Of a DNA stretch of 64,000 nucleotides, positions 16,459 to 61,803 are shown piece after piece; position 1 is the stretch's first letter, and each line of letters begins with the position of its first letter. Location of the stretch: positions 1 through 64,000 of the IMG/VR virus record IMGVR_UViG_3300042691_039794, one strand, 5' to 3'. This stretch comes from a virus. Made by a program: the position numbers and the translations under genes. The notes beneath the pieces were generated by a model, which made no database searches, was not told where the DNA came from, and worked only from the letters and a program-made list of their open reading frames with translations.

Positions 16459-18357
16459 ATGGACTTAGTCAAAATATTGTCTACTGTAGTAGAAAAAAAA
16501 TCTATTAGTACAAAACTTGTTATTAATGAGGCGTTGTCAAAAAAAGTAATTGAGAAACTTTTGAAAAAATTTAAAACGCAAACAAAAGATGACGATTCGG
16601 TTATTCTTAAAACAATCGAAGGTTTTAGTAAATTCAAAGATAGTTTACCAACTGGTAAGAGGGATATTACTCAATATGATTATTTACCTTTAAAAAATAT
16701 CGTTCTAACTAAAGAAACAAAAAAATTAGAAAAAGAATCATATCCAAAATACATAGAACAAAATAAAGGGGCCAATAAAAACGATGTAAAAAAAGCCCTT
16801 AAAAAATATTTTGAGTTGTATCCTTTGTTGGCTCCAAATCAAAGAAATTTAGACAACCTACCATACCTGAAATTAATTGAATTCTTACAACAAAAGTTTA
16901 ATACAATTATTACAGCCGCGGCAACAAAAAAGTTCAAAGAAGAAGCACCTTCAATCACAAATGAGCAATTAATTTATTATATATCTGCTTACTTAGACAA
17001 CTATAATAACTTGCCTGAAACTACACCACCAATATTATTCATGACTTTTGAACAATTGGAACATGTGGTTGATGGTTTGGGTGGAATTTCTGACGATTTG
17101 AAAAAACCAAAAGGTCAGTATGACGACATCGAAAGAATCTATGATCAAGACAACCTTTTGATATTTAAACCAAACGGAAAAGAACAATGTGTAAGATTGG
17201 CACATGGTAGAAGTTGGTGTATATCAAGAGAAGGAGGAAGTAATCTTTATTACAATTATAGATTAGATAAAAATTTAACAATCTACTATGTTATAGATTT
17301 AGATAAACCATACGGTGATTTAGATTTTGCTAGTGTAATACTTGTTGATAAATACGGTAGAAAAAGAATTGCAGATGGAAAAAATATGGCAGGAGGATAC
17401 TCTGGACATAACGTAGAAAGTTGGGACACAATAAGTAAAAAAGTTCCAAAAATTGCCGACAAAGAGAATTTATTTGTACCTGACCCATTAACTGATGAAG
17501 AACAGGATCTATTTTACAAATATAGAAATGCATCAGTAAGTCAAGATGCGGTAAAAGAATTAGGAAGTGTACACGCAGCAGAAATGTGGTTAGAATTAAG
17601 AAGCCCGGATCTTAGCAATTATTCAAACGGAAGTACTGTATATTCAAATTTACCTGACGAACTTAAGAAAAAATATATAAGTTTAGATTTAGGACTGACA
17701 TCTGAAATGATTAAAAATTCTTCACCTGAGGTTTTAAAACTTTATGCGTCACGTCAATTAGAAAAGATACTTAGAAAGTCACTAAAAGAATTGAAAAGCA
17801 CTGATATTAGTTTCTTAAAAACACCAATTATGGCTCAACATAAGGAAGGTTTGAAAGAAAGATTTGCTAGTGAATTAACTATGGGCGGTAATGACAAAGG
17901 ATATATTTCTTTGGAATACCCTAACGATATAAGTTCCAAATTTGCCGCTTTGTATGGTTTTGATACTTTTTTCGATTCATTACCAAATGACATTGAGTTT
18001 TTAACTTTGGAAAATAAATCAGGAGAACCTATGACGGAAAAAATACCTGAAAGTATTTCGAGATTCCAAAATCTAACCACATTGGTTATTATAAATTTTA
18101 TAGATGAATTACCAAACAACATTGGAGATTTGAAAAATTTAGGTTTTTTGAGTATTAATGATTGTCCGAATCTAAAATCTTTTCCCGACTCTATTTCCAA
18201 ACTCAGTTGTTTAGAGTATTTTTCACTCGAAGGATCAAACACCTCACATTTAAAATTACCTGAAAGCGCAAAACCATATATGAAACTTCATTCTGATTTT
18301 GTTGAGTTAGATTTTCCTGAGAATATGAGACAACATTGCGAACCAATAAAATATTAG
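16459..18357 (+). CDS. LRR protein with WC-motif domain
   Basis: A 632-residue protein of unknown function. The N-terminus has a hydrophobic/amphipathic run ending LVINEAL (residues 21-27), similar to capsid-targeting peptides cut after xE. A central domain around Trp253-Cys254 (AHGRSWCISREGG, then NLTIYYVIDLD) recurs in the protein at 37060 around Trp170-Cys171. The C-terminal part from about residue 510 holds leucine-rich repeats (IPESISRFQNLTTL, LPNNIGDLKNLGFL, FPDSISKLSCLEYF). It may be a virion-packaged effector or a protein-binding factor. Confidence 0.8.
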   Translation: MDLVKILSTVVEKKSISTKLVINEALSKKVIEKLLKKFKTQTKDDDSVILKTIEGFSKFKDSLPTGKRDITQYDYLPLKNIVLTKETKKLEKESYPKYIEQNKGANKNDVKKALKKYFELYPLLAPNQRNLDNLPYLKLIEFLQQKFNTIITAAATKKFKEEAPSITNEQLIYYISAYLDNYNNLPETTPPILFMTFEQLEHVVDGLGGISDDLKKPKGQYDDIERIYDQDNLLIFKPNGKEQCVRLAHGRSWCISREGGSNLYYNYRLDKNLTIYYVIDLDKPYGDLDFASVILVDKYGRKRIADGKNMAGGYSGHNVESWDTISKKVPKIADKENLFVPDPLTDEEQDLFYKYRNASVSQDAVKELGSVHAAEMWLELRSPDLSNYSNGSTVYSNLPDELKKKYISLDLGLTSEMIKNSSPEVLKLYASRQLEKILRKSLKELKSTDISFLKTPIMAQHKEGLKERFASELTMGGNDKGYISLEYPNDISSKFAALYGFDTFFDSLPNDIEFLTLENKSGEPMTEKIPESISRFQNLTTLVIINFIDELPNNIGDLKNLGFLSINDCPNLKSFPDSISKLSCLEYFSLEGSNTSHLKLPESAKPYMKLHSDFVELDFPENMRQHCEPIKY

Positions 18358-23580: not shown

Positions 23581-25182
23581 GTGAAAAAAATAGTACTTAC
23601 TGAAAAAAATTTAATTAGTTTAATAAATTTAATAATTGAGAATGTCAATCAAGAACAAGAAGTAATTGAGTTGTCATCAGAACAATTTTTGAATCTTTTA
23701 AAACGAGTCAATTACAACTACCAAGGATTAAAAAACATTGCTCAGTTCAAAAATAAAAGATTTAAAATTACTGAAGCATTAAATTTAACAGGTCTCCCTA
23801 TAAAAACTTTATATGATATAGAGGTTGATGGACCACTAATTTTGAAAAGATCTAAAATTGAAAAAATTTATAATGTTGTAGTTGGTGGTTCATTAGATAT
23901 TTCTGACACGAAAATTTCCGAAATTCCTCAAGTCCATACAAATAGATTAATTTATCATGGTAGTACACTTGCCGAAATAGAAAGAAAAAGAAAATTACAA
24001 ATCAAATTTGACGAACAAGAAGAAAGAAGAGAAGAAAATGAATGGGATGAAGAAAACACTGATGAAGAATCTGAAATGGCACATGCCGTTTTTGAATTTG
24101 CCGTTAATAGTGGACATGTTGGTAAAATTGATACTGAAACAGTAAAGGCATTAAAACAAAATATAGAATCATTAGTTGAAAAACAAATTGAGTTAGACAA
24201 AAAACAAGATTCTTTAGACACAAACGACGATGAATGGAATTCAAAATGGGATGAAATTCAAGAAAAAATTGATGAAATAGAAAATGAAATAAAAGATTTA
24301 GAATCTGAGTTAGATGATGAAACAACCGATAAAGTTGATGTCTATAATTTTTATCCTGAGGGTAGAAGTCATTATGATATGAAAGTTTATCTTTCTCTTG
24401 ATAATGGATTTGAATATGTGGTGTCAACATATAGTAACGCGATGTCATCGTTAGAAGATTATTACCAAGAATGGGTTGACAACCCAACAGATTATCTTTC
24501 GAGTGAATTTCTTGAGGGTTATGTGGATGGTGATCAAGTTGCAGAATATTTAGAAGATTCATTCAGAGATAGTGTCTACGATTCTCCTGAATCTTATGAT
24601 GTGACCCGTTTTTTAAGTAAAGATCAAGAAACCGAAATATGGTTACTTGAAATGGAAAAGTGGGTTTATGAGAATGAAGGATTAAGAGTCCCAATAATGT
24701 ACCCAACAAAAGAAATAGACGGAAAAGTTTTTGATTTTGAAGATTCAGAAGGTAACAGATTTCAATATGTAAACACAAGTACAAATCCAAATACTTCAAA
24801 TTGGGTTTTATATAAAGAAGGGCAAGTTATACCTCCTCACCAAATATATGATGATGAAAATACTGAAGAACACAATGAAGAACGTGAAAGTAGAATATCG
24901 GATATTGATTATGAAATAGAGGAAATTAAAGATAATCCAGATGGGGATTTAGATGATGAATCTGTAGAATCTGTTGTGGAAGATATGAAATATGACGCAG
25001 AAAGAAACCCAATGAGTTATGTAAATGATTATGGATTAGATAGTGTATACTTCATAGATACAACACGAATACTTAATGATTTGATTGATAATTCATCATT
25101 TGAAGTTTTAGCATACTACGATGGAAATTACGATGAGATCAATATTAATGGAACCGATTATGTGGTTTTTAGAATCGATTGA
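23581..25182 (+). CDS. Acidic LRR-like protein with capsid-targeting-like N-terminus
   Basis: A 533-residue protein starting at GTG; an ATG at 23579 is out of frame and stops at once. Residues 1-22 (KKIVLTEKNLISLINLIIE) form an amphipathic helix ending in IIE, like a T4 capsid-targeting peptide. A short repeat region of about 20-residue beta units follows (EVDGPLILKRSKIEKI, VVGGSLDISDTKISEI), then a coiled-coil and a very Asp/Glu-rich C-terminal half. A virion-internal protein is plausible. Confidence 0.75.
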   Translation: MKKIVLTEKNLISLINLIIENVNQEQEVIELSSEQFLNLLKRVNYNYQGLKNIAQFKNKRFKITEALNLTGLPIKTLYDIEVDGPLILKRSKIEKIYNVVVGGSLDISDTKISEIPQVHTNRLIYHGSTLAEIERKRKLQIKFDEQEERREENEWDEENTDEESEMAHAVFEFAVNSGHVGKIDTETVKALKQNIESLVEKQIELDKKQDSLDTNDDEWNSKWDEIQEKIDEIENEIKDLESELDDETTDKVDVYNFYPEGRSHYDMKVYLSLDNGFEYVVSTYSNAMSSLEDYYQEWVDNPTDYLSSEFLEGYVDGDQVAEYLEDSFRDSVYDSPESYDVTRFLSKDQETEIWLLEMEKWVYENEGLRVPIMYPTKEIDGKVFDFEDSEGNRFQYVNTSTNPNTSNWVLYKEGQVIPPHQIYDDENTEEHNEERESRISDIDYEIEEIKDNPDGDLDDESVESVVEDMKYDAERNPMSYVNDYGLDSVYFIDTTRILNDLIDNSSFEVLAYYDGNYDEININGTDYVVFRID

Positions 25183-26440: not shown

Positions 26441-27568
26441 ATGAAAGTTAAATTAGAATACGTTTGGTTGGATGGATACAAACCTGAACCAAATTTGAGA
26501 AGCAAAGTAAAAATAGTTGAATACGAGAAAGTTAAAAATGCATTTTTGGATGGAAAATTCCCCATATGGAATTTTGACGGATCATCAACTCTCCAAGCTG
26601 AAACAGGTAACTCAGATAGATTATTAAAACCTATAAGACATTATGTTGCTGATGTTACTTCCACAGTTTATGTTTTATGTGAGGTATTAAATCCTGATGG
26701 AACTCCACACGAATCAAACAAAAGATCACAAATTAGTCAAGGATATGAAGATCTTTGGTTTGGGTTTGAACAAGAATATTTCATTCGTGAAGAAATTAAT
26801 GGAAACATATTGGGACACAAAAGAAATATTTTAAAAGGACAGGGTGAATATTATTGTGGTGTTGGACATAACGTGGTAGGTCGTTCATTTGTTGATGAAC
26901 ATTTAAACATGTGTTTGAATTATGGAATTGATATTACCGGTATAAACGCGGAGGTTGCACTTGGTCAGTGGGAGTATCAAGTTTTCTCTCAAGGAAAACA
27001 CAAAGGTGGAGATGATCTTTGGATGACAAGATACTTCTTACTTAAAATTGCAGAAAAATACGGATACCATATCGAACTTCACCCAAAACCATTAACACAC
27101 GGAGAGTGGAATGGATCAGGACTCCACACGAATTTTTCAACTGATAAGATGAGAAATGAAGGGAATGAAGAATATTTTATGGCTTTATTTAACGCATTTG
27201 AGGCTAGACATGATGATCACATCAAGGCATATGGGTCTAACAATAACCTTCGTTTGACTGGACAATACGAAACTCAATCAATCGATAAATTCAGTTGGGG
27301 TGTTTCTGACCGAGGAGCGTCAATTCGAGTACCTCAAGACACCGCTAAAGAATGGAAGGGGTATATTGAGGATCGAAGACCGGGATCAAATGCCGACCCA
27401 TATAAAATCATTCGTGAGATTGTTAACTCATTGGAAACTACTCATCAAATCTATGAAATGAAAAATATGATGAACACATATGTTGATGTAAAACCATTGG
27501 AAGGAAAATATGGGACAAAATCAAACGATGAGTTATTAAGCGAATATAGAGAAGAAGAGGCGGAATAA
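26441..27568 (+). CDS. Type II glutamine synthetase
   Basis: A 375-residue glutamine synthetase (ATP + glutamate + ammonia to glutamine) of the GSII type found in eukaryotes and Bacteroidetes. The early motif WNFDGSST, the metal/glutamate-site motif FGFEQEYF, the GQGEYYCGVG loop, HGEWNGSGLHTNFST (equivalent to the family WNGAGCHTN motif) and RGASIRVP are all intact, so it is probably active. It may boost glutamine for nucleotide synthesis during phage replication. The stop codon overlaps the start of the DUF3310 gene. Confidence 0.95.
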   Translation: MKVKLEYVWLDGYKPEPNLRSKVKIVEYEKVKNAFLDGKFPIWNFDGSSTLQAETGNSDRLLKPIRHYVADVTSTVYVLCEVLNPDGTPHESNKRSQISQGYEDLWFGFEQEYFIREEINGNILGHKRNILKGQGEYYCGVGHNVVGRSFVDEHLNMCLNYGIDITGINAEVALGQWEYQVFSQGKHKGGDDLWMTRYFLLKIAEKYGYHIELHPKPLTHGEWNGSGLHTNFSTDKMRNEGNEEYFMALFNAFEARHDDHIKAYGSNNNLRLTGQYETQSIDKFSWGVSDRGASIRVPQDTAKEWKGYIEDRRPGSNADPYKIIREIVNSLETTHQIYEMKNMMNTYVDVKPLEGKYGTKSNDELLSEYREEEAE

Positions 27569-50760: not shown

Positions 50761-51645
50761 ATGAAAGTTTTAAAATTAGGATCTAAAGGAAAAGAGGTTG
50801 AAGATCTTCAAAAATACTTAAAAATTAAAGTTGATGGTGATTTCGGACCTAAAACAGAAGAGTCAGTAAAAAAATTTCAAACTGCAAATAAATTAGTTGC
50901 TGATGGTATTGTTGGTGAAAAAACATGGAATGCCATGGGTTTTTATATTACCACTGAGTTATCTGAAACGATAATATCCACTGAAAAATTGATCATAGAT
51001 CAAAAATACATGGATAAAGATGAGTATTTGGCAGGACCAACAAAAAAAGAATATTTGTTTTTACACCATACCGCTGGAGGACACGACCCTTATTCTGTTA
51101 TTAAAATGTGGAATAACGACACTCGAGGAAGAGTAGGGACAGAATTTGTTATGGGAGGTCAGTCCGTGTTCAACGGCAATGACATATATGATGGGTCTCT
51201 TGTTCAATGTTTTCCTGAGGGTGCTTATGGTTGGCACTTAGGTGAAAATGGATCACAACACATGCATACTCACTCGGTTGGTATTGAAGTTTGTAATTTT
51301 GGACCAATTAAAAATGGTTTAACTTATACTGGTCAAAAGGCAAATCCACTTCAAATTGTGGAACTTAAACAACCATTTAGAGGATCAAAATTTTATCATA
51401 GATATTCTGATAAACAAATCAGTACACTCAAATCATTCATTTTATACATTGCAGAAAGAGATAGTATTGACGTAAGAAAAGGTTTGGTACAAGAGATTAA
51501 AAGTAAAGGTGCTGCAGGTTTCGAATTCAATTCTGACGCTTACTACGGGAAAATAAAAGGTATGTGGACACACACCAACACAAGAAAAGATAAATCAGAC
51601 ATGTTTCCTCAACAAGAACTCATCGACATGTTATTAAGTTTGTAA
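50761..51645 (+). CDS. Amidase (PGRP/Amidase_2) with peptidoglycan-binding domain
   Basis: A 294-residue cell-wall hydrolase. Residues 1-57 are a peptidoglycan-binding domain (GSKGKEVEDLQKYL, VDGDFGPKTEESVKKFQ, ADGIVGEKTWNAM). The amidase domain then has the zinc His pair in FLHHTAGG (His102/His103), GWHLGENGSQHM, THSVGIEVCNFG and a C-terminal WTHTNTRKDKSDMFP. It cuts the sugar-peptide bond of peptidoglycan. With no signal peptide it needs a holin or acts from the virion. Confidence 0.93.
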   Translation: MKVLKLGSKGKEVEDLQKYLKIKVDGDFGPKTEESVKKFQTANKLVADGIVGEKTWNAMGFYITTELSETIISTEKLIIDQKYMDKDEYLAGPTKKEYLFLHHTAGGHDPYSVIKMWNNDTRGRVGTEFVMGGQSVFNGNDIYDGSLVQCFPEGAYGWHLGENGSQHMHTHSVGIEVCNFGPIKNGLTYTGQKANPLQIVELKQPFRGSKFYHRYSDKQISTLKSFILYIAERDSIDVRKGLVQEIKSKGAAGFEFNSDAYYGKIKGMWTHTNTRKDKSDMFPQQELIDMLLSL

Positions 51646-52580: not shown

Positions 52581-53417
52581 TTACTTAAGTAAGTTATAAT
52601 ATTCTTTAAAGTGTTTGATACGATCAGGTAAACCAATTGTTCCACCATTCACTCTTTTTGTTACTGAAGTAACTGTTGCATCATCAGCACCTTTATCGCA
52701 AATCGCCCAAAGTTTATTTGAATCAAAGAAGAAAGCTGCAGACGCTAAAGGATATTTGGTTGCAACCAAGTCAGGATTCGCAACACAATCTTCACCAATA
52801 AATTTTGTAAAGTTTGTATAGTTTGCCTTTCCTGTTAATTGGATATAACCTCTACCTCTAAATTTAAATCCTTCTTTAGATGCTTCATCTCCATTACCCA
52901 TTCTTGATGCGTAAACACGAGCGGCAATCTTTTCAGGTTGACGAGCGTAAGATTCATTTAAGTTACCAGGAAAATACTTTCCGAAGATCTTCTTCAAACC
53001 ATCCGCAGAGTAATTCAAGTTTTCACTTACTGCCTTGAAATTACCTGACTCATGACCACATTGTGCCAAGAAGTGAGCTAATCTCAAATTATTTGTAATA
53101 TTGAATTTCTTTGCAGTTTCAGGAATCTGAGCAAGAACCGCATCAGGAATATGACCCTTTAACTTCTCAATATTTAATGGACCTCCTGATGGGATAACCA
53201 CATCCTCTTTAATAACTTCTGTGGTAGGTTTTGACTCACCAAATAGTTTAGCCCATGTTGCATCACCAACGATACCATCATCTTTTAAACCATTCGCTTT
53301 TTGCCAAGCTTTAACCGCAGCTTCTGTTTTTGGTCCGAATTTACCTATGGCTTCTACACCTAATTTTTCTTGGAGTTTTTTTACATCAGCTCCTTCTGAT
53401 CCGACTTTTAATATCAT
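52581..53417 (-). CDS. GH19 endolysin with peptidoglycan-binding domain
   Basis: A 278-residue muramidase/chitinase-fold enzyme on the minus strand. Start at 53417 gives MILKVGSEGADVKKLQEKLG, a peptidoglycan-binding domain (residues 1-53). From about residue 80 the GH19 domain has LAHFLAQCGHESGNF with the catalytic Glu, YASRMGNGDE and FRGRGYIQLTGKANY. It cleaves glycan strands. Unlike its neighbours it is transcribed leftward, with codon choice slightly richer in G/C. Confidence 0.93.
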   Translation of the reverse strand: MILKVGSEGADVKKLQEKLGVEAIGKFGPKTEAAVKAWQKANGLKDDGIVGDATWAKLFGESKPTTEVIKEDVVIPSGGPLNIEKLKGHIPDAVLAQIPETAKKFNITNNLRLAHFLAQCGHESGNFKAVSENLNYSADGLKKIFGKYFPGNLNESYARQPEKIAARVYASRMGNGDEASKEGFKFRGRGYIQLTGKANYTNFTKFIGEDCVANPDLVATKYPLASAAFFFDSNKLWAICDKGADDATVTSVTKRVNGGTIGLPDRIKHFKEYYNLLK

Positions 53418-53526
53418 AATGTTAGATTTTCCTATAAATAGTAAATTCATTAACAAAGTAAAGTTTTTCTTATAAAAAAATGATCAGTTCGTGGTTTTTA
53501 AGATACTTATTAGTAAATGAAAAAAT

Positions 53527-54126
53527 ATGGGATACACAAGAGAACAGGTCGAGGCTGCCGTTAAAGCCAAAGGTTATGTTTATTTCGAAGACGCCTCAAA
53601 CAAGGGTTACGACATAAACATTATAGGTATAAGAAACGCGGCTACCGGTCAAAAGGTAACAAACGCGTTTGATGACTTATTAACGATAAGTTACAAAGAT
53701 GAAACAGGAGCGTGGAAATACCACGAATGGCCAGCAACCACAGATCCTGGTAAAAAAGGTGTGTTGGAATATCACAACTCTGCCGGTGTTGCAAGACTTG
53801 TTGAAGGTCAGTACAGAGGTTCACACTCTATTGGTCTTCACCAAGGTAAATACGAAGCTTTAAGACAGGCAAAAAATGTTAAAGTTTATCGTGACCCAAA
53901 TCGTGATTTAACTTATGATGAAACAAAAATTGCTGAAGGAGTTTTTGGTATTAACATTCACAAGGCAGGTGCCGATTCAACTTATGTTGAGAATTGGAGT
54001 GAGGGATGTCAGGTGTTTAAGAAGTCGGCGGATTTTGAATCTTTTATGAAGATCTGTAGATTGGCTCGAGACAAACACGGAAACTCTTTCACATATACTC
54101 TTATTGAGAGTTCAGACATAAAATAA
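53527..54126 (+). CDS. L,D-transpeptidase/YkuD-like candidate
   Basis: A 199-residue protein. Near the C-terminus, GINIHKAG (His145), a 13-residue gap and WSEGCQVF (Cys161) resemble the YkuD-type catalytic signature H-x(14-17)-(S/T)-x-G-C. Other strands (TISYKDETGAWKYHEWPATT; GVARLVEGQYRGS) fit a beta-rich enzyme. No signal peptide is seen. It may act on cell-wall peptide cross-links as part of the neighbouring wall-enzyme group, or be a virion protein. The assignment rests on one motif. Confidence 0.6.
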   Translation: MGYTREQVEAAVKAKGYVYFEDASNKGYDINIIGIRNAATGQKVTNAFDDLLTISYKDETGAWKYHEWPATTDPGKKGVLEYHNSAGVARLVEGQYRGSHSIGLHQGKYEALRQAKNVKVYRDPNRDLTYDETKIAEGVFGINIHKAGADSTYVENWSEGCQVFKKSADFESFMKICRLARDKHGNSFTYTLIESSDIK

Positions 54127-54150: not shown

Positions 54151-56058
54151 ATGAAACAACTAAAAAGCCTGTTGATCGGGCTTTTGCTATTCTTACCATT
54201 TATTGGTAAGGCACAGGTACCTGCAGCACCATCAAATGGTCTATGGGGAATTATCGCAGCCCAATATCAAGTTGGGACAACAGCACAAGGCACAACAGAT
54301 GCGAAGATCACACTTCAAAATACTACCCTAACAAAATTTGCGGGTACTCAATTTAGAGTGTTCTACGATAATGTAGCGTTTACAAATGCAACGGTATCTT
54401 TAATTGGATCACCAACAAACTTAGACCTTCAGTATATTACAAATACGGCAAATGGTTACATTACCATTACACTTGTTTACACAGGTCCAAGTGCGACTTA
54501 CACAATACCAAATGGTGAAAGATTTTTAATTACTTTCACTCATGCGGCGGCGGCAACATTTAATAACTTGGCGTCGATCAGTAACTTAACTTGGTCAGGA
54601 CCTCAAACCTTTACACCGTATGCCGCAAAACAAGATGGTATGGATACTACGTTAAGTGTTCATAACTATGGTGGTGTTTTCACTCCTGTTAACTTCGCTT
54701 ATCACGGAACATTCACAAACGTTACTGGATCTGCGGCTAAGTATTTAAACTTGGCTTTACAGAGAAGACCGTTTGGTGGGAACACATGGACACAACACTC
54801 AACTTATGTTACTGATATCAACGGGGACTTTAGTATTTCAGTTCCTTTAGATACAACATATTGGGATGTTAGATTGGCAATCCAAGGAGACACAATGGGT
54901 GTTGGTAATATTATCTCATCAACAGATGCTCAGTTAATAAATCAGTGGGTTTTAGGAAACGGAACTATGACTGGATTTAATTACTACTCTGCGGATGTTA
55001 ACGGATCTAATAACATAACCGTATCTGATGTATGGGGTGTGTTTGGTAGAATCTCAGGAAGATTTAACTCATGGCCAAACAACACAAAAGATGTTAAATT
55101 CTTTACAGCATCTGAATACACAACAATCAATGGATCAGCAACTAACTACACATCAACTATTGCAGGTGTAACAAACTTTACATTTGATATCCTACCGGGT
55201 CAACCTGACTCAGTTGTATATTATGTATTGGTTCCTGGTGATGCTAACGGTACAGGTTATAACATGGCTCGTGTTACTCCTATCGAAGTATTGGTTGGAC
55301 CAATACCAGGTTTGGAATCACAAATCTATAATGTGATCGATACTAAAGTTGAGTATGACTTCCCTACAACAACTATAGAAGTTAATGTTCCTCATATTTC
55401 GGTTGAATCTGGAAACTTGGTAAACCTTCCTGTGAAAGTATTCACAAACGGAGAGGAGTTATCAGCACTTCAATTCGGTTTGAAATATGATACAGACCTT
55501 TTAGAATTTAAAGGAATCATTTCTTCATCAAATGCAATGGAGTGGATCACATATGTGAATCCAAATGACGGACAAATAGATTGGGGTGGGTTTGATCAAA
55601 CAAACAACGAACAAACTTTAAAAGATGGTGATGAGGTTGTTACATTACAGTTTATTGCAAAACAACCACAAACACTTTGGGAAGATAGTCCATTGTATAC
55701 TTCATTGAAGTTTGCAGGTACGAAAGACTCAAAGGATTTAACAATAACACCAACTAACGGAATCCTACAAGTATTAAAAAGTAACATGGGAGATGTTAAC
55801 GGAAACACAATACAAGTTAATCCTAATCCTGTTGTAGATGAAGTTACAATCACCTTCAAAGTTGAAGAAACAACAATCGCAAACCTTTCAGTTTATGATG
55901 TGGTTGGAAGAAAGTTGATCACAATTTTAGATGGGCAGTTACCAAATGGTGAATATACCTATAATGAAAGTTTAGGTACATTAAAACCAGGACTTTATGT
56001 GGTAACATTAACTATGGAAAATGGAGGAACAAAAGTTTCCAAAATTGTAAAACAATAA
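54151..56058 (+). CDS. T9SS cargo protein with cohesin-like and dockerin-like domains
   Basis: A 635-residue exported protein. Signal peptide residues 1-22 (LLLFLPFIGKAQ). Then a beta-sandwich at about 23-170, a module at about 175-390 with a dockerin-like calcium loop (ADVNGSNNITVSD, about 283-295), a cohesin-like domain at about 412-545 (ISVESGNLVNLPVKVF, LQFGLKYDTDLLEFKG), and a C-terminal type A T9SS sorting domain from about 556 (VNPNPVVDEVTITF to LKPGLYVVTLTM and the final Lys-rich end). T9SS is the Bacteroidetes outer-membrane secretion route, so the protein should be displayed or released at the host surface. A phage-encoded T9SS substrate is unusual. Confidence 0.88.
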   Translation: MKQLKSLLIGLLLFLPFIGKAQVPAAPSNGLWGIIAAQYQVGTTAQGTTDAKITLQNTTLTKFAGTQFRVFYDNVAFTNATVSLIGSPTNLDLQYITNTANGYITITLVYTGPSATYTIPNGERFLITFTHAAAATFNNLASISNLTWSGPQTFTPYAAKQDGMDTTLSVHNYGGVFTPVNFAYHGTFTNVTGSAAKYLNLALQRRPFGGNTWTQHSTYVTDINGDFSISVPLDTTYWDVRLAIQGDTMGVGNIISSTDAQLINQWVLGNGTMTGFNYYSADVNGSNNITVSDVWGVFGRISGRFNSWPNNTKDVKFFTASEYTTINGSATNYTSTIAGVTNFTFDILPGQPDSVVYYVLVPGDANGTGYNMARVTPIEVLVGPIPGLESQIYNVIDTKVEYDFPTTTIEVNVPHISVESGNLVNLPVKVFTNGEELSALQFGLKYDTDLLEFKGIISSSNAMEWITYVNPNDGQIDWGGFDQTNNEQTLKDGDEVVTLQFIAKQPQTLWEDSPLYTSLKFAGTKDSKDLTITPTNGILQVLKSNMGDVNGNTIQVNPNPVVDEVTITFKVEETTIANLSVYDVVGRKLITILDGQLPNGEYTYNESLGTLKPGLYVVTLTMENGGTKVSKIVKQ

Positions 56059-56081
56059 ACCCTAAATAAACAAAAACAAAA

Positions 56082-56426
56082 ATGTCAGAAGAACAAGAAA
56101 CACAAGAGACTAATGACGGGACATGGTCAGGTCTTAAAAAAACAATCATCGGAACTTTAACAACAGTTATAGCCGGTGGTGGTATTTGGTTAAGTACAAT
56201 TTTATTTGGTGGTAGTAGTGAAGAACCGAAAGAGGAAACAAAAACAGAACAGTCTGGAGGTCAAGCACCAATCACAATAAATGTACAACAAAACCAAGAA
56301 AATAAACAAAAAACAGAGAACAACAATGGGGGTGGTGTAGTTCGTGAGAGAATCATCGAAAGACCTGCACAACAACCAGCGGCACAACCTGAGAAACCTA
56401 AAAAAGTAGAAGAGGAATCTTGGTAA
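56082..56426 (+). CDS. Membrane-anchored disordered protein (114 aa)
   Basis: An acidic N-terminus (MSEEQETQETNDG), one membrane helix at about residues 21-45 (TIIGTLTTVIAGGGIWLSTIL), then a Gln/Asn/Glu-rich tail with RERIIERPAQQPAAQPEKP. It could be a small spanin- or Tol-like linker. It sits between the T9SS cargo and a possible holin. Confidence 0.65.
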   Translation: MSEEQETQETNDGTWSGLKKTIIGTLTTVIAGGGIWLSTILFGGSSEEPKEETKTEQSGGQAPITINVQQNQENKQKTENNNGGGVVRERIIERPAQQPAAQPEKPKKVEEESW

Positions 56427-56453
56427 TAAATAAACAATAAATAAAAACAAAAA

Positions 56454-56738
56454 ATGGGACACAAGAAAACAAAAAAATCATTCTTAGTAAGAATGTTCAT
56501 GGATCATAACGATATCAACGAAAAATCAATAGTTGGTTTTGGTTCATTTTTAATGATGGTTATCTGTCTTGGTGTAGACATCTGGACAGGATTTCACGGA
56601 CAAAAAATGCCAATCAATCAATTTATCTATGATGGATTTTTATGGATCACTTTAGGTTCATTTGGAATTGCATCAGTTGATAAGTATTTTGCTGGTAAGA
56701 ATCCAACTAACGAGGAAGAGGAAGAAGTAGAAGGGTAA
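56454..56738 (+). CDS. Two-helix membrane protein, holin-like candidate
   Basis: A 94-residue protein with a basic N-terminus (GHKKTKKSFLVRMFMD), two membrane helices (VGFGSFLMMVICLGVDIW and FLWITLGSFGIASVD) and an acidic tail. Such N-basic/C-acidic two-helix proteins are typical of holins. I recall similar FLxRMFMD proteins in Bacteroidetes phages. It is directly upstream of the CsgG-like gene. Confidence 0.62.
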   Translation: MGHKKTKKSFLVRMFMDHNDINEKSIVGFGSFLMMVICLGVDIWTGFHGQKMPINQFIYDGFLWITLGSFGIASVDKYFAGKNPTNEEEEEVEG

Positions 56739-57472
56739 TGAAAAGAATACTTTACATATTACCATTTCTAATGATCGGATGTAAAACTGTAGCTCAGCCC
56801 CCTCAAGGAGGGGGTATTGGCTCTGTTAAAACAGAACAATATGTTGCAGATTTTGAAAAGAAACAATCAATAGACTCGGTTGCTGATTACGATGGATCTA
56901 TTCAGGTTCCTATCCAATTATTAAAGATTGGAATTAACGAAGAACTTTATGAATTATATCCTGAGTTAAAAGATAAAAGAGTAGGTCTTGGTGTTACAAA
57001 TATTGTAATTGAATATTTGGAATATACCAACAGATTTATTTTCACCGAAGAAAAGGAAGATATCAAACAAAGAATGATTGCTCAAGACAAGGCATCAGAC
57101 AAAGGTATATCTTCAAATAAAATAGAAGTAAAAGGTAATGTTGTTTTGGCTAAGTACTTCGTTTATATTGAGGTATATGATTTTTCAGTATCAGAAGACG
57201 AGATTGTAAAAGTTAATGGACAACAAACCGTAAATCAAACTACAAGATTAGGTCTTCAGATCAAATTTGTAGATGCTGAAACAAGTCAGGTGATTGTAGG
57301 ATCAGGACTTGGAGAAGCGGTAACAATTAAAACAACATCAATCTTGGGTGATATCTCAGATGATGTTAAATTCAACCAATCAACTGTAGGTATATCTACA
57401 AAAAAAGCTTTAGAAACAGCCTCATCAAGAGTTGTGACTAGACTTATATCAAAAGGTGTATTTCCGAAGTGA
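56738..57472 (+). CDS. CsgG-like outer-membrane lipoprotein
   Basis: A 244-residue lipoprotein (lipobox LMIGC, Cys15) with a CsgG domain. VGLGVTNIVIEYLEYTNRFI, LAKYFVYIEVYDFSV, RLGLQIKFVDAETSQVIVGSGLG and VGISTKKALETA follow the family. CsgG forms an outer-membrane secretion pore for curli subunits in bacteria. CsgG genes are known from marine T4-like phages, where a lysis or secretion role has been suggested. Here it precedes two barrels and a C-type lectin rather than curlin genes. Confidence 0.87.
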   Translation: MKRILYILPFLMIGCKTVAQPPQGGGIGSVKTEQYVADFEKKQSIDSVADYDGSIQVPIQLLKIGINEELYELYPELKDKRVGLGVTNIVIEYLEYTNRFIFTEEKEDIKQRMIAQDKASDKGISSNKIEVKGNVVLAKYFVYIEVYDFSVSEDEIVKVNGQQTVNQTTRLGLQIKFVDAETSQVIVGSGLGEAVTIKTTSILGDISDDVKFNQSTVGISTKKALETASSRVVTRLISKGVFPK

Positions 57473-59133
57473 GAATAAACATTTTCATATCTTTGTTGTT
57501 CGTCCTATTTAGTTTTTTCAAACTAAACGCACAGACCTACAACTATTCTTACACTGATCCTTGTACAGGAAACATAAAAAACCTTATAGTCCCCATCAAT
57601 GGTTCAGTCACGGTGGGGTACTATGGTTTTGTTGAGAATTTTACTCAACAACAATTTACAGATGGAACTTTTGAAACTTGGGCTAACCAAGTTTTTTCGC
57701 AATATGAAGGATCACCATGTTCAGAGATAATTGGACTTGGTGGGCAGATTAACATCGGACAAGATGTTGCTTTAAATACAATAGGTATAATCAATTCTCT
57801 TTCGTCTTTAATGGACATATCAAATGGGGCAACCGACTTTTTGAGTGGATCATTAAATGCGGCGTCAAATTCTTCTAATACCCAAGGAAGTAAAGGTAAT
57901 AAGAAGAATGGGAATAATTCCCAAAATGGAAGTGGAAACAATACACCAAATACTAATAACACCACAACCAATAATACTCAAAATCAAACAAATGGAACAA
58001 GTAACACTACTGAAGGAAGTACAACCACTTCTGGAACAAATGAAACAAGTTCAAACAACGGAGGAAATGGAACCACTAATCAAAATGGTGGAACTGAAAA
58101 TCCAACACCAGCAGGAGGAACTTCAACTGAGGGTGGATCAAATGCGAATGGAAATTCACAGGCTAGCCAGCCTATAAACAATCAAAACCAAGGTAATGAA
58201 AATAATAGTAATAATACTAGTGGCGTCGATCCTGGGAACGCTAGTGTCGTTGGGAATAGTGGGAATGTGGAAGGATCTAACCAACAAGGACAACAAGAAT
58301 TAACCAATAATGGTTCTACAACTAACCCTAACGGTAATGGTTCTAATGGTGGTGGGAACTCTGGTGTGGGGGGTAATGGTGGAAACCAACCTAACACAGA
58401 AGAAACAACACCACAAGAAGAACAAGGAGGAGGACAAACCAATATTACACAAGGGGCTACAAAAACAATAAATCAGAATAAGGAAGGTGGTAAACCTACA
58501 GTAATTGCATCGAGTGATTTTGTAGGTTTCAACTTTCAAAACTCTGAAGTTAGAACAGGATTGAAACTAACGGGTGGATATCATAACATGCGTTGGGATG
58601 GCGAAACTGCTCGTGGTGGTTTGGTTGATTATGTATCGGCACAACAGGGACCTAACATGACTGGATACCATGCGTGGATCAACAAAAGAAGTGTTGGTCT
58701 TTTATCAGGAACTTTATCTTTAGGGTTTGAAGGTAGAGGATCTGTCTATGGGACAATTGCAGGAGGACAAATGTTTATGTTCCCAAAAATTCCAAGTTTG
58801 AAAGCGGTTTATATGGGAACCGTATCATACGGTCAGGTATATAAAACTCAGTTCTTAGGAACTGCAATGATTGCAGGAGGGATGTATGACTTGAAGTTTG
58901 GAAAAAGAATAGATGTTAAACTTATGAGTTTATTTGTTTATTCACCATATGTCAGTTATTACAATGATTTAGTATTAAAATCTCCTTATGTAATCTTACC
59001 AAGTATTGGAACCAATATAAGTATTACAAAGAGATTTAAATTCAACATAAATGCAGGAGGGGCGTGGGCAATAAAGGTAAACACTCTAAATTATACAATA
59101 ACATGTGGAACAAGATTATTAGTTGGACAATAG
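57469..59133 (+). CDS. Exported beta-barrel protein with Asn/Gly/Thr-rich linker
   Basis: A 554-residue protein. Signal peptide residues 1-22 (FVLFSFFKLNAQ). N-terminal domain to about 130 with two Cys, then a low-complexity region of about 210 residues (about 130-340) made almost only of Asn, Gly, Thr, Ser, Gln and Glu. A C-terminal barrel-like domain of about 210 residues follows, whose last strands (IGTNISITKRFKFNINAGG, TCGTRLLVGQ) resemble the protein at 60101. The repeats are not the regular curlin type. It is probably an outer-membrane or surface protein in the CsgG module. Confidence 0.8.
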   Translation: MRINIFISLLFVLFSFFKLNAQTYNYSYTDPCTGNIKNLIVPINGSVTVGYYGFVENFTQQQFTDGTFETWANQVFSQYEGSPCSEIIGLGGQINIGQDVALNTIGIINSLSSLMDISNGATDFLSGSLNAASNSSNTQGSKGNKKNGNNSQNGSGNNTPNTNNTTTNNTQNQTNGTSNTTEGSTTTSGTNETSSNNGGNGTTNQNGGTENPTPAGGTSTEGGSNANGNSQASQPINNQNQGNENNSNNTSGVDPGNASVVGNSGNVEGSNQQGQQELTNNGSTTNPNGNGSNGGGNSGVGGNGGNQPNTEETTPQEEQGGGQTNITQGATKTINQNKEGGKPTVIASSDFVGFNFQNSEVRTGLKLTGGYHNMRWDGETARGGLVDYVSAQQGPNMTGYHAWINKRSVGLLSGTLSLGFEGRGSVYGTIAGGQMFMFPKIPSLKAVYMGTVSYGQVYKTQFLGTAMIAGGMYDLKFGKRIDVKLMSLFVYSPYVSYYNDLVLKSPYVILPSIGTNISITKRFKFNINAGGAWAIKVNTLNYTITCGTRLLVGQ

Positions 59134-60101
59134 TATTTTTTTGTGTGTTCTCATTAAACGCACAAAACTTTACATATTCAGGTTACATAAGAAATGCTGA
59201 TGGTACTGGAGCTGTTAATGTACCTGTTAAATTATATAAAAGAACTACGCCCGTAATAAATGGGTTCACATCTCAAAATAACTACAACGGACATTCTTAC
59301 TATAGATCTACAGGATCTATGTTTTGGAGCGATGCTAGACAAGCTTGTCTGAATATGGGAGGACACTTGGTTACGGTAACAAGTGCTGCTGAAAACTCTT
59401 TTATATTTGGGATTTGGCCTTCAGGTTGGATTGGATTAACAGATGAAGTAGTTGAGGGTCAATGGAGATGGGTTACAAATGAAACATACTCCTACACCTC
59501 ATGGAATCCTGGTGAACCAAATAATGCGGGTAACGAAGATTATGTTCAATTTGTGGGGGGTGGTAAATGGAATGACTTACCAAACGGAGTATCCTTACCA
59601 TATGTGTTAGAGTTTGAATATATAGTAACATACACACCATGGGTATTACATCAAACAGTATACACAAACGCTTCAGGATATTATAATTTTTCACAACCAA
59701 CAAACCCATCAGTTGAATGGTACATACAGTACGACGCACCAACACCAGTAACTGCATTACAAATAACTGATATGGTTGAAGTTTCTAAATTGGTATTAGG
59801 GATAACCTCAATTAAAAGTATTCACTACCATAGGTATGATGTTAACTATGATGGTAGAATAAATGTTGCAGATGAAAACTACATTAATCTTAGACGATAC
59901 GGTTTTTTTGGTGGGTGGATTAATATGAGTCCATCTAGATTATTCACACCTGCACAATACACAACATTAACGACAAATACAACAGACATGAGAATAGCAA
60001 TTCCTGGTGTATCATCTATAACAATAAACTCACCTGTAAGTGGGGGATCGCAAAACTATTACTTGATAGCTCCTGGGTATAAAACAACAGTCAGTTACTA
60101 A
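59103..60101 (+). CDS. C-type lectin with dockerin-like module
   Basis: A 332-residue exported protein (start 59103 chosen to give the signal SWTIVFFCVFSLNAQ). After a short beta domain comes a C-type lectin domain at about residues 63-171: SYYRSTGSMFWSDARQACLN, LVTVTSAAENSFIFG, WNPGEPNNAG (the EPN sugar motif) and GGKWNDLP (WND). The rest, about residues 175-332, carries a dockerin-like loop RYDVNYDGRINVADENYI and a beta domain, all homologous to the middle of the T9SS cargo at 54151. The lectin should bind a glycan; its calcium-dependent residues are present. Overlaps the upstream gene by 31 bp. Confidence 0.87.
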   Translation: MWNKIISWTIVFFCVFSLNAQNFTYSGYIRNADGTGAVNVPVKLYKRTTPVINGFTSQNNYNGHSYYRSTGSMFWSDARQACLNMGGHLVTVTSAAENSFIFGIWPSGWIGLTDEVVEGQWRWVTNETYSYTSWNPGEPNNAGNEDYVQFVGGGKWNDLPNGVSLPYVLEFEYIVTYTPWVLHQTVYTNASGYYNFSQPTNPSVEWYIQYDAPTPVTALQITDMVEVSKLVLGITSIKSIHYHRYDVNYDGRINVADENYINLRRYGFFGGWINMSPSRLFTPAQYTTLTTNTTDMRIAIPGVSSITINSPVSGGSQNYYLIAPGYKTTVSY

Positions 60102-60898
60102 TGAAAAAACTTTTAATTACACTTTTAATACCTTTTGGGTTGTTTAGTCAAGGACCGCCACCACCTCAACAAACATCCACAACTACACAAGATTTTGGTA
60201 ATACCCAAAATAATATTAACGGAGTTCAAGGTAGATCTTTTGGTGGAGGATCAATAGTTAAACCAAATCCAATTCTAACATCCGCAGATTTCGCATTTAT
60301 CCAAAACCCAACATATGAAACTGGATGGAGATATGGGACGGGTATTGGTTATAGTCGAATTAACATGGGTAAAGGTTTTGGAGTAAACGCAATGTTAACT
60401 TTTGATTTAACCCAACAAACATATTCTTTGTATTACAGAAAAAATGATTGGTATTTTCATTTAAACACTGGTAAAATGGGTTTTACTTTAAACAATGGGT
60501 TTAGTGTGACTAAAATATGGGAACTTGGAAAAATGTATGATTTAACATTAGGGGTTCAGGTAGGTAATTCAGTGGTTATAAACGGTGATAAAAATTCGAT
60601 AGGTGCTTATTTTGTTAATGTACCGTACTTAGTTTTATTGGGTCAAAAAGAAATAATAATATCAAAAAAATTAGAATGGAGACCCGAGGGATTTATTACT
60701 CTGTGTTCACCATATTATGATATAGGAAAAAAATACTTCTCAACATCAAACACATTCAACGTTGTTGTAGGGAATAATATTTCATACAATTTATCTAAAA
60801 AATTTAGGTTGAATATTGATTGGAGAATGAATATGAATACAACCCCAAAGTGGGGTTTAATGAATAATGTTCTTATTGGAACAAACTTAAAATTTTAA
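60101..60898 (+). CDS. Outer-membrane beta-barrel protein, paralogue of gene at 57469
   Basis: A 265-residue exported protein (signal ending LFSQ at residue 17), a short Pro/Gln/Thr linker (GPPPPQQTSTTTQDFG) and a barrel of about 200 residues with alternating hydrophobic strands (RYGTGIGYSRINMG, NAMLTFDLTQQTYSLYYR). The last strands NISYNLSKKFRLNIDWRM and NNVLIGTNLKF align with the end of the protein at 57469. The terminal Phe is typical of outer-membrane barrels. Start overlaps the lectin stop by 1 bp. Confidence 0.78.
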   Translation: MKKLLITLLIPFGLFSQGPPPPQQTSTTTQDFGNTQNNINGVQGRSFGGGSIVKPNPILTSADFAFIQNPTYETGWRYGTGIGYSRINMGKGFGVNAMLTFDLTQQTYSLYYRKNDWYFHLNTGKMGFTLNNGFSVTKIWELGKMYDLTLGVQVGNSVVINGDKNSIGAYFVNVPYLVLLGQKEIIISKKLEWRPEGFITLCSPYYDIGKKYFSTSNTFNVVVGNNISYNLSKKFRLNIDWRMNMNTTPKWGLMNNVLIGTNLKF

Positions 60899-60901
60899 AA
60901 T

Positions 60902-61354
60902 ATGAAAAATATAATCTTACTACTTGGTATGTTACTACTTGGTAACCTCGCAACGGCACAACAGTGTGTTTATGTTGATTCAGTTTACAACACTGCTAAA
61001 CTAAAAGAAATGGGAAACAGAGATATCAGGTTTGGTATTCGACAAATTGTTGAGGATGAACTATCCGAAAAGTTTTGTTTATCTGAGGAAGGAAAAGATA
61101 TTGATGTTGAAGTATTTTACTTTGGATTACCTAAAACTACAATTAGAATTGTTGGTGTTGAAAAGACCGAATCAGTTACTCAAGTTGGTGTTAGATTATA
61201 CTATGATGGTAAATGTTATGAAGGGATTGGAGAGTCAGAAACAGAGATCAGAGCAATTATGATTGAGGTTAAAGAAGGTATGTTACCTTTTGAAAAAATG
61301 ACTGTATCATCGGCATTAAAAAAGGCTATACACGAAGCCGTTATCAAAATATGA
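60902..61354 (+). CDS. Exported hypothetical protein (150 aa)
   Basis: Signal peptide residues 1-20 (LLGNLATAQ), then a small alpha/beta domain with three Cys (AQQCVYVDS, KFCLSEEG, DGKCYEGIG). Rhythm of the last strands is slightly CsgG-like, but I cannot assign it. Overlaps the next gene by 4 bp and belongs to the exported module. Confidence 0.72.
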   Translation: MKNIILLLGMLLLGNLATAQQCVYVDSVYNTAKLKEMGNRDIRFGIRQIVEDELSEKFCLSEEGKDIDVEVFYFGLPKTTIRIVGVEKTESVTQVGVRLYYDGKCYEGIGESETEIRAIMIEVKEGMLPFEKMTVSSALKKAIHEAVIKI

Positions 61355-61803
61355 AAATATGGCAACTTTTGATATTGTTAATGTTTTGGTCATCATCTTT
61401 CTCGCAAATCCGTATCGCTGATGTTGGGGATGGTTGGAAAGGTAAAGTAGAACAAGCATTAGATACTATAAAGAAATACGACATTCAAAAGTATTATCTG
61501 ATTATGGAAAACTGTTCTAATGTTGCTTATTGGAATGGAGGGTTCTCAACCACAGAAGGAGATAGTACAATCACTATACCGGCAAGAGAAATGAACGATG
61601 GAAATATCTATAACATTTCTGCGATTTTAGTTCACGAAACAATACATTTATACTTCAAAGGAACCAAGTTCAATTTGAATCCAAACACCGAAGAAGTAAT
61701 TGCATATCAACACGAACTTGAATTTTTAGAAAAGATTCCATGTGTTGATCCATGGTTAATTGAAAATGCCAAAAACAAAATCAAATTTTATTCAAAACCA
61801 TAG
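61351..61803 (+). CDS. Secreted zincin-type metalloprotease candidate
   Basis: A 150-residue exported protein (signal residues 1-19, WSSSFSQ) with the zinc motif LVHETIHLYF (His95, Glu96, His99) and a downstream EEVIAYQHELEF that could supply the third ligand. The small size and early core (YYLIMENCSNVAYW) suggest a minimal zincin. A target in the periplasm or at the surface is likely, perhaps another protein of this module. Last gene of the module; the next has its own promoter. Confidence 0.78.
   Translation: MKIWQLLILLMFWSSSFSQIRIADVGDGWKGKVEQALDTIKKYDIQKYYLIMENCSNVAYWNGGFSTTEGDSTITIPAREMNDGNIYNISAILVHETIHLYFKGTKFNLNPNTEEVIAYQHELEFLEKIPCVDPWLIENAKNKIKFYSKP

Follow-up and report, generated by a model that had tools for sequence, protein, structure and literature searches.

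A conserved phage module of exported proteins with a candidate role at the surface of infected Bacteroidota cells

Nine consecutive genes at positions 54151-61803 of the viral contig IMGVR_UViG_3300042691_039794 encompass a set of exported proteins that, judged by sequence comparison, is real, conserved, mobile and largely phage-specific. The window, by which we mean the whole stretch of DNA analysed, comprises bases 1-64000 of this 75,564-bp contig; genes in it are named below by their first base. We favour, with some reservation, the reading that this set is an envelope module through which the phage displays a glycan-binding adhesin, itself exchangeable, on the surface of the Bacteroidota cell that it infects. 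Its core has five members: a scaffold with a sorting tail for the type IX secretion system (T9SS) (54151), a CsgG-fold protein (56738), a predicted barrel protein (57469), a lectin or other adhesin (59103) and a 150-amino-acid protein, P150 (60902). An earlier note, prepared without database searches, had proposed a phage-encoded exported and outer-membrane module at this place, and that core claim is strongly supported by the results below.

All the open reading frames listed in the earlier note were confirmed at their coordinates (Table 1). Seven of the nine genes (54151, 56738, 57469, 59103, 60101, 60902 and 61351) encode proteins with signal peptides, and between them lie a protein with a single transmembrane (TM) segment (56082, TM1) and a holin-like protein (56454, TM2). 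The lectin reading frame is opened by a GTG at 59064, and its likely start is the internal ATG at 59103. A simple signal-peptide rule, which some membrane proteins including 56454 also trigger, was satisfied by 7/7 exported module genes and by 16 of the 114 other open reading frames of the contig; nine signal-like genes in succession arose in none of 20,000 gene-order shuffles. The cluster of signal peptides that had been described is thus borne out.

Relatives were sought in viral contigs with 56738 as the query, which yielded 150, of which 80 were kept, and in a second scan with the corresponding protein of Flavobacterium phage immuto, which reached the other side of the CsgG-fold family. 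Loci were kept if they had at least 5.5 kb on both flanks, and dereplication by the CsgG-fold protein (95% identity) then left 34. The five core genes occur jointly in every one of them, and gene order, named in the earlier note as a point on which the proposal should stand or fall, is kept: scaffold, TM1, CsgG-fold protein and barrel follow one another in all loci, with a small membrane protein inserted in some, and the adhesin either comes after the barrel or precedes the scaffold, the latter arrangement being that of the immuto group. Of the 34 loci, 32 have a called TM1, and an antisense open reading frame fills its slot in the remaining two. The C-terminal Trp of TM1 (56082-56426) is invariant in 30 of 30 aligned relatives, which suggests a conserved C-terminal contact.

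Contigs as long as 309 kb have the module, and so does the isolate immuto, which carries the core set together; the block common to these large Bacteroidota viruses numbers six genes or more. A search of 50,697 phage records matched the immuto isolates only. Among bacterial and archaeal genomes (about 85,000 species, one genome each), a single profile scan, which uses peptide patterns and may let distant relatives escape, found two relatives, both in metagenome-assembled genomes (MAGs), one on a contig of 254 kb and the other on a contig of 12.6 kb.

Sequence affinities further indicate transfer of the module from one phage lineage to another. Compared with immuto, phages that do not belong to its group have a CsgG-fold protein 63-77% identical, among them phages with terminases about 30% identical, and this protein is the most identical of those that the window contig has in common with immuto (71%). 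In one contig (G011) the affinities of the two proteins disagree: its terminase shares 57-58% identity with those of the immuto group and about 30% with those of window-like phages, whereas its CsgG-fold protein is closer to window-like phages (84-87% identity) than to the immuto group (72-74%). It is from this disagreement that we infer transfer. The wider proposition that the identities of the CsgG-fold protein and the terminase vary independently was rejected, the overall rank correlation being positive (0.83), so the case for transfer depends on the mismatch seen in G011.

The scaffold ends in a T9SS type A sorting domain (TIGR04183, E 1e-9, above cut-off; Por_Secre_tail also matched). TIGR04183 detects this tail in 22/22 scaffold relatives, in keeping with the T9SS substrate proposed in the earlier note, and every member of the family (TCOH) satisfies the signal rule. 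In immuto the scaffold is split in two and the tail is on gp015. Given its Sec signal and type A tail, the scaffold should be exported to the cell surface by the host T9SS. In a survey of T9SS tails in 16 records, 15 from phages and one a bacterial MAG, the scaffold was the sole T9SS-tailed protein found in 14 of the 15 phage records (up to 309 kb). The window contig has one further protein with a signal peptide and a type A tail, past the end of the window (G000:C1:73225-73797; L002:13225-13797).

The scaffold also has a cohesin domain (PF00963, 37.2 bits; cut-off 24.1), which recurs in 15 of 16 records. It has in common with the adhesin a dockerin-like stretch (BLASTP E 3e-9 over 151 amino acids), as the earlier note had claimed, and the scaffold's own copy has a profile match to the solved dockerin 4uyp (E 0.003). 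The resemblance to cellulosome scaffolds lies in the presence, in one gene set, of a cohesin above the Pfam cut-off and dockerin-like modules; unlike them, the phage-encoded set has a dockerin under cut-off, a single cohesin, and adhesins in place of glycosidases.

The head of the adhesin 59103 matches Lectin_C (E 6e-16), with mannose-receptor domains closest among solved structures (phmmer), and the EPN and WND sugar/calcium motifs of mannose-class C-type lectins are present in 50/50 distinct C-type heads, so that the C-type lectin recognised earlier is confirmed. The adhesin has no T9SS tail. Several types of head are found at the adhesin position: C-type lectin, C-type with Laminin_G_3, C-type with Ig_7, GEVED and one unassigned head. 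The 403-amino-acid adhesin at L003:10339-11547 has an N-terminal head without a Pfam family above cut-off. Head class differs in 99 pairs of loci whose CsgG-fold proteins are at least 93% identical, although near-duplicate contigs figure among these pairs, which are not independent, and the classes C-type and C-type/Ig_7 overlap, one probe being contained in the other. For example, L013 and L014 have CsgG-fold proteins 98% identical and adhesin tails 81% identical, with a GEVED head in one and a C-type lectin/Ig_7 head in the other; in other pairs the tail has diverged too, down to 33-40%. These comparisons identify the lectin position as that of a swappable adhesin whose heads evolve by replacement, a property overlooked in the earlier note, as was the secreted nuclease that some versions of the module include (see below).

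Lectin heads and their replacement recall the exchange of receptor-binding tips, and lectin domains occur on the virions of jumbo phages (PMC7824862), which would suit a place for lectin and scaffold on the particle, where they would bind glycans of the host during adsorption. We consider a virion role very unlikely: signal-like N termini, present in 90-100% of the core exported families, would remove these proteins from the cytoplasm, the site of virion assembly, and in immuto the module is far from the head and tail genes.

For 56738 an AlphaFold2 (AF2) model gave CsgG (4uv2) as the best Foldseek match (E 2.8e-8, probability 1.00), followed by FlgT, PelC and LptE. No sequence match to CsgG was found in Pfam (even at E 1), PHROGs, NCBIfam or Protein Data Bank (PDB) profiles, and an hhalign comparison with Escherichia coli CsgG matched within the leader only. 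Membership of the CsgG sequence family was rejected, and the relation is kept as one of fold. The earlier label of CsgG-like lipoprotein accordingly stands for the fold and falls for the sequence family; as to the lipoprotein part, it holds by motif for the window protein and fails as a family trait, since only 26 among 81 distinct relatives have a lipobox. Comparison with the CsgG-like family (hhalign probability 95.7%, E 9.5e-9) and direct matches of the P150 profile to CsgG-like proteins identify 60902 as a paralogue of 56738. Neither this paralogy nor the restriction of the CsgG relation to the fold had been noticed in the earlier note. P150 was also considered as CsgE and rejected, with no match between the two, and a likeness to ribosomal protein S1 was dismissed as confined to a short stretch.

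In the AF2 model of 57469 (BARn), a long linker follows the N-terminal domain and leads to 12 strands. Its best Foldseek match is FapF (5o67, E 2.1e-5), with several other 12-strand barrels close; in sequence there was no FapF match, and a search of the BARn profile against PDB gave only low-complexity matches, apparently due to chance, which were discarded. This FapF-like architecture had gone unremarked in the earlier note. The earlier suggestion that the two barrels of the module are related draws weak support from hhalign, which aligns 60101 (bar2) with BARn (probability 79%, E 1.6e-5), and none from BLASTP, which found nothing. Relatives of bar2 in viral contigs number only two (L163 and L164), at the same position.

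With CsgG and FapF as its top fold matches, the module might be a hybrid of the curli (CsgG) and Fap (FapF) amyloid-secretion systems, exporting an unfolded or fibre-forming substrate such as the low-complexity linker or another protein. The FapF plan of coiled coil, linker and plugged 12-strand barrel (PMC5557850) is echoed at the level of fold in 57469, where a helical domain at the N terminus is followed by a long disordered linker and a 12-strand barrel, and 56738 resembles the type VIII secretion protein of curli in its fold, its export and, by motif, the lipidation of the window copy. We regard this hybrid as quite unlikely, however. There is no sequence-level match to CsgG, CsgE or FapF, no CsgA/B or FapC-like repeat protein was seen in the module, and family scans of the module proteins matched no FapD/C39 peptidase, no curlin and no CsgF, the last without direct alignment. 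The exported proteins are instead adhesins with folded domains. Set beside curli, the module also has short hairpins and an unconserved lipobox in 56738 and an extra CsgG-fold paralogue; set beside Fap, 57469 is as like other 12-strand barrels and differs in its N-terminal domain.

A second comparison is with PelB/PelC and LptD/LptE, in which a CsgG-like periplasmic lipoprotein fold likewise accompanies an outer-membrane barrel, PelC and LptE being among the fold matches of 56738; here, however, the module contains no polysaccharide or lipopolysaccharide pathway, and the pairing is suggested by gene order.

Under the favoured reading, that of a phage-encoded module decorating the infected cell surface, the scaffold would be placed on the surface by the host T9SS and its cohesin would hold the adhesin through the adhesin's dockerin-like tail. 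The adhesin would cross, or be held at, the outer membrane with the help of a complex of the 12-strand barrel protein 57469 and the two putatively periplasmic CsgG-fold proteins 56738 and 60902, which together could form an exporter or an anchoring complex, and 56082 would link this complex to the inner membrane. As to purpose, we slightly favour the masking of surface glycans against competing phages, that is superinfection exclusion, a role that accessory secreted nuclease and protease genes would suit; alternatively, infected cells may stick to the glycans of neighbours or particles. The earlier note had offered three guesses. The best fit is the coating or remodelling of the surface, or secretion of the lectin, given a universal T9SS tail and the swapping of lectin heads. 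A more elaborate version, which we put forward only tentatively, is a trans-envelope display system exchanged between tailed-phage lineages, in which the CsgG-fold proteins and the FapF-like barrel would move the swappable lectin through the outer membrane to dock, by cohesin and dockerin, on the T9SS-exported scaffold, and so create a new glycan-binding surface.

Several results weigh against surface decoration by this route. The structural models are of low confidence (pLDDT 59 for 56738 and 55 for 57469). The equivalents in 56738 of the two transmembrane hairpins with which CsgG builds its 36-strand pore have 21-22 residues rather than 28-29, which bears on the ability to form a pore, and the amphipathicity test, in which their alternating hydrophobicity was similar to that of CsgG, was non-discriminating. 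Both dockerin matches (17.5 and 19.3 bits) are under the Pfam cut-off of 22.9, which touches the putative coupling of scaffold and adhesin. Lastly, an endolysin gene lies within 5.5 kb of the core in 20 of the 34 loci, which would allow a link to lysis.

Under such a link the module would act on the outer membrane during lysis, its barrels and CsgG-fold proteins perforating or destabilising that membrane in place of spanins, together with the holin-like protein and nearby endolysins. Holin-like genes are found inside or beside the module in several loci, a Phage_holin_4_1 gene is directly upstream in L033 and its relatives, and 56082, with one TM segment and a Q/P-rich tail, is loosely spanin-like. 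Against this, the core is not constantly linked with holin and endolysin: 14 of the 34 loci have no nearby endolysin, and in immuto an endolysin homologue (63%) and the 56454 homologue are at 43.4-44.3 kb, beside an annotated holin and about 27 kb from the core, which stays together. Nor do the universal T9SS tail and the swapping glycan-binding heads have an obvious role in perforation. We judge a lysis function unlikely, and the outer-membrane pore for lysis suggested in the earlier note is, like the virion role, disfavoured. The TM2 family of 56454 occurs in 8 of the 34 loci, and a Pfam search with 56454 gave no match; since its immuto homologue adjoins the endolysin and annotated holin, 56454 is probably a lysis-cassette gene outside the module core. 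The lysis genes are neighbours of the module, not parts of it.

Enzymes accompany the core in many loci. A zincin gene is found in 21 of the 34 loci, and the HExxH motif in 49/49 zincins bears out the secreted zincin described earlier; a secreted Endonuclease_NS, absent from the window, stands beside the adhesin in 12 of the 34 (e.g. L009:3775-4362 and L083:9935-10510). These enzymes, and the T9SS-tailed hydrolases encoded by Cryophage (PMC7468147), would agree with a nutrient-scavenging or matrix-degrading display, in which binding modules on a surface scaffold and secreted nuclease and protease feed the infected cell during a long infection. This we hold to be highly improbable, as the enzymes are accessory and outside the core and the dockerin-like module is confined to scaffold and adhesin among the proteins of the window contig and immuto.

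Phages with T9SS-tailed proteins have been reported already, namely Cryophage (PMC7468147) and phages with BACON-domain proteins (PMC6949934), and there too the type A tails are thought to use the host T9SS. Those proteins are scattered or variable hydrolases and binding proteins, whereas here one conserved scaffold belongs to a fixed module with a CsgG-fold protein, an outer-membrane barrel and an adhesin. What appears to be new is the system that the module forms; the domains that can be recognised in it come mostly from known folds or families. Known alterations of host surfaces by phages involve single proteins or glycan-modifying enzymes. In the open-access literature we found no description of a phage CsgG/T9SS/cohesin module, nor of any conserved, phage-encoded multi-gene apparatus reaching from the inner membrane to the exterior and largely absent from bacterial genomes. 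If the favoured reading is true, the infected cell would gain an adhesive surface specified by the virus, which would evolve new specificities through the swapping of domains, as a tail-fibre tip does, though located on the cell, and the module would offer an entry to superinfection exclusion, to the aggregation of infected cells and to phage use of type IX secretion in Bacteroidota. Immuto, which carries the module, and its host Flavobacterium sp. LMO8 are a cultured pair.

Table 1. Genes of the module and its accessories in the window
Gene product	Coordinates	Strand	Features
TCOH scaffold/T9SS cargo, 635 aa	54151..56058	+	Signal peptide, N-terminal beta domains, dockerin-like module (about 213-363), cohesin (409-508), T9SS type A sorting domain (557-635)
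TM1, 114 aa	56082..56426	+	Single predicted N-terminal membrane segment, Q/P-rich tail, invariant C-terminal Trp
TM2, 94-aa membrane protein, holin-like by context, accessory	56454..56738	+	Immuto homologue
CsgG-fold exported protein, 244 aa, most conserved module gene	56738..57472	+	AF2/Foldseek; lipobox in window copy
BARn, main barrel protein, 554 aa	57469..59133	+	Signal peptide, N-terminal domain (conserved Cys pair, long helix), about 220-aa low-complexity linker, predicted 12-strand C-terminal barrel
LEC adhesin, 332 aa	59103..60101	+	Signal peptide, Ca-dependent-type C-type lectin head (EPN, WND), C-terminal dockerin-like module
bar2, second predicted barrel, 265 aa, accessory	60101..60898	+	hhalign to BARn
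P150, exported paralogue of CsgG-fold protein, 150 aa	60902..61354	+	hhalign and profile matches
ZN, secreted HExxH zincin, 150 aa, accessory	61351..61803	+	HExxH motif

A scan for the Bacteroidota promoter motif found 10 occurrences against 8.1 expected, and a sigma-70 promoter scan gave results close to background. Just upstream of the module stand in a row an Amidase_2 endolysin (50761-51645), a GH19-type endolysin on the opposite strand (52581-53456, minus) and a phrog_3000 protein with weaker endolysin similarity (53527-54126). Elsewhere in the window, a 375-amino-acid glutamine synthetase-like protein (26441-27568) has a match covering only part of the catalytic domain, and a 632-amino-acid protein (16459-18357) has a leucine-rich repeat region under the Pfam cut-off. 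A scan of the ten large window proteins gave a single capsid-protein signal, a very distant match of the protein at 23581-25182 to a major head protein (phrog_10, E 8e-6).

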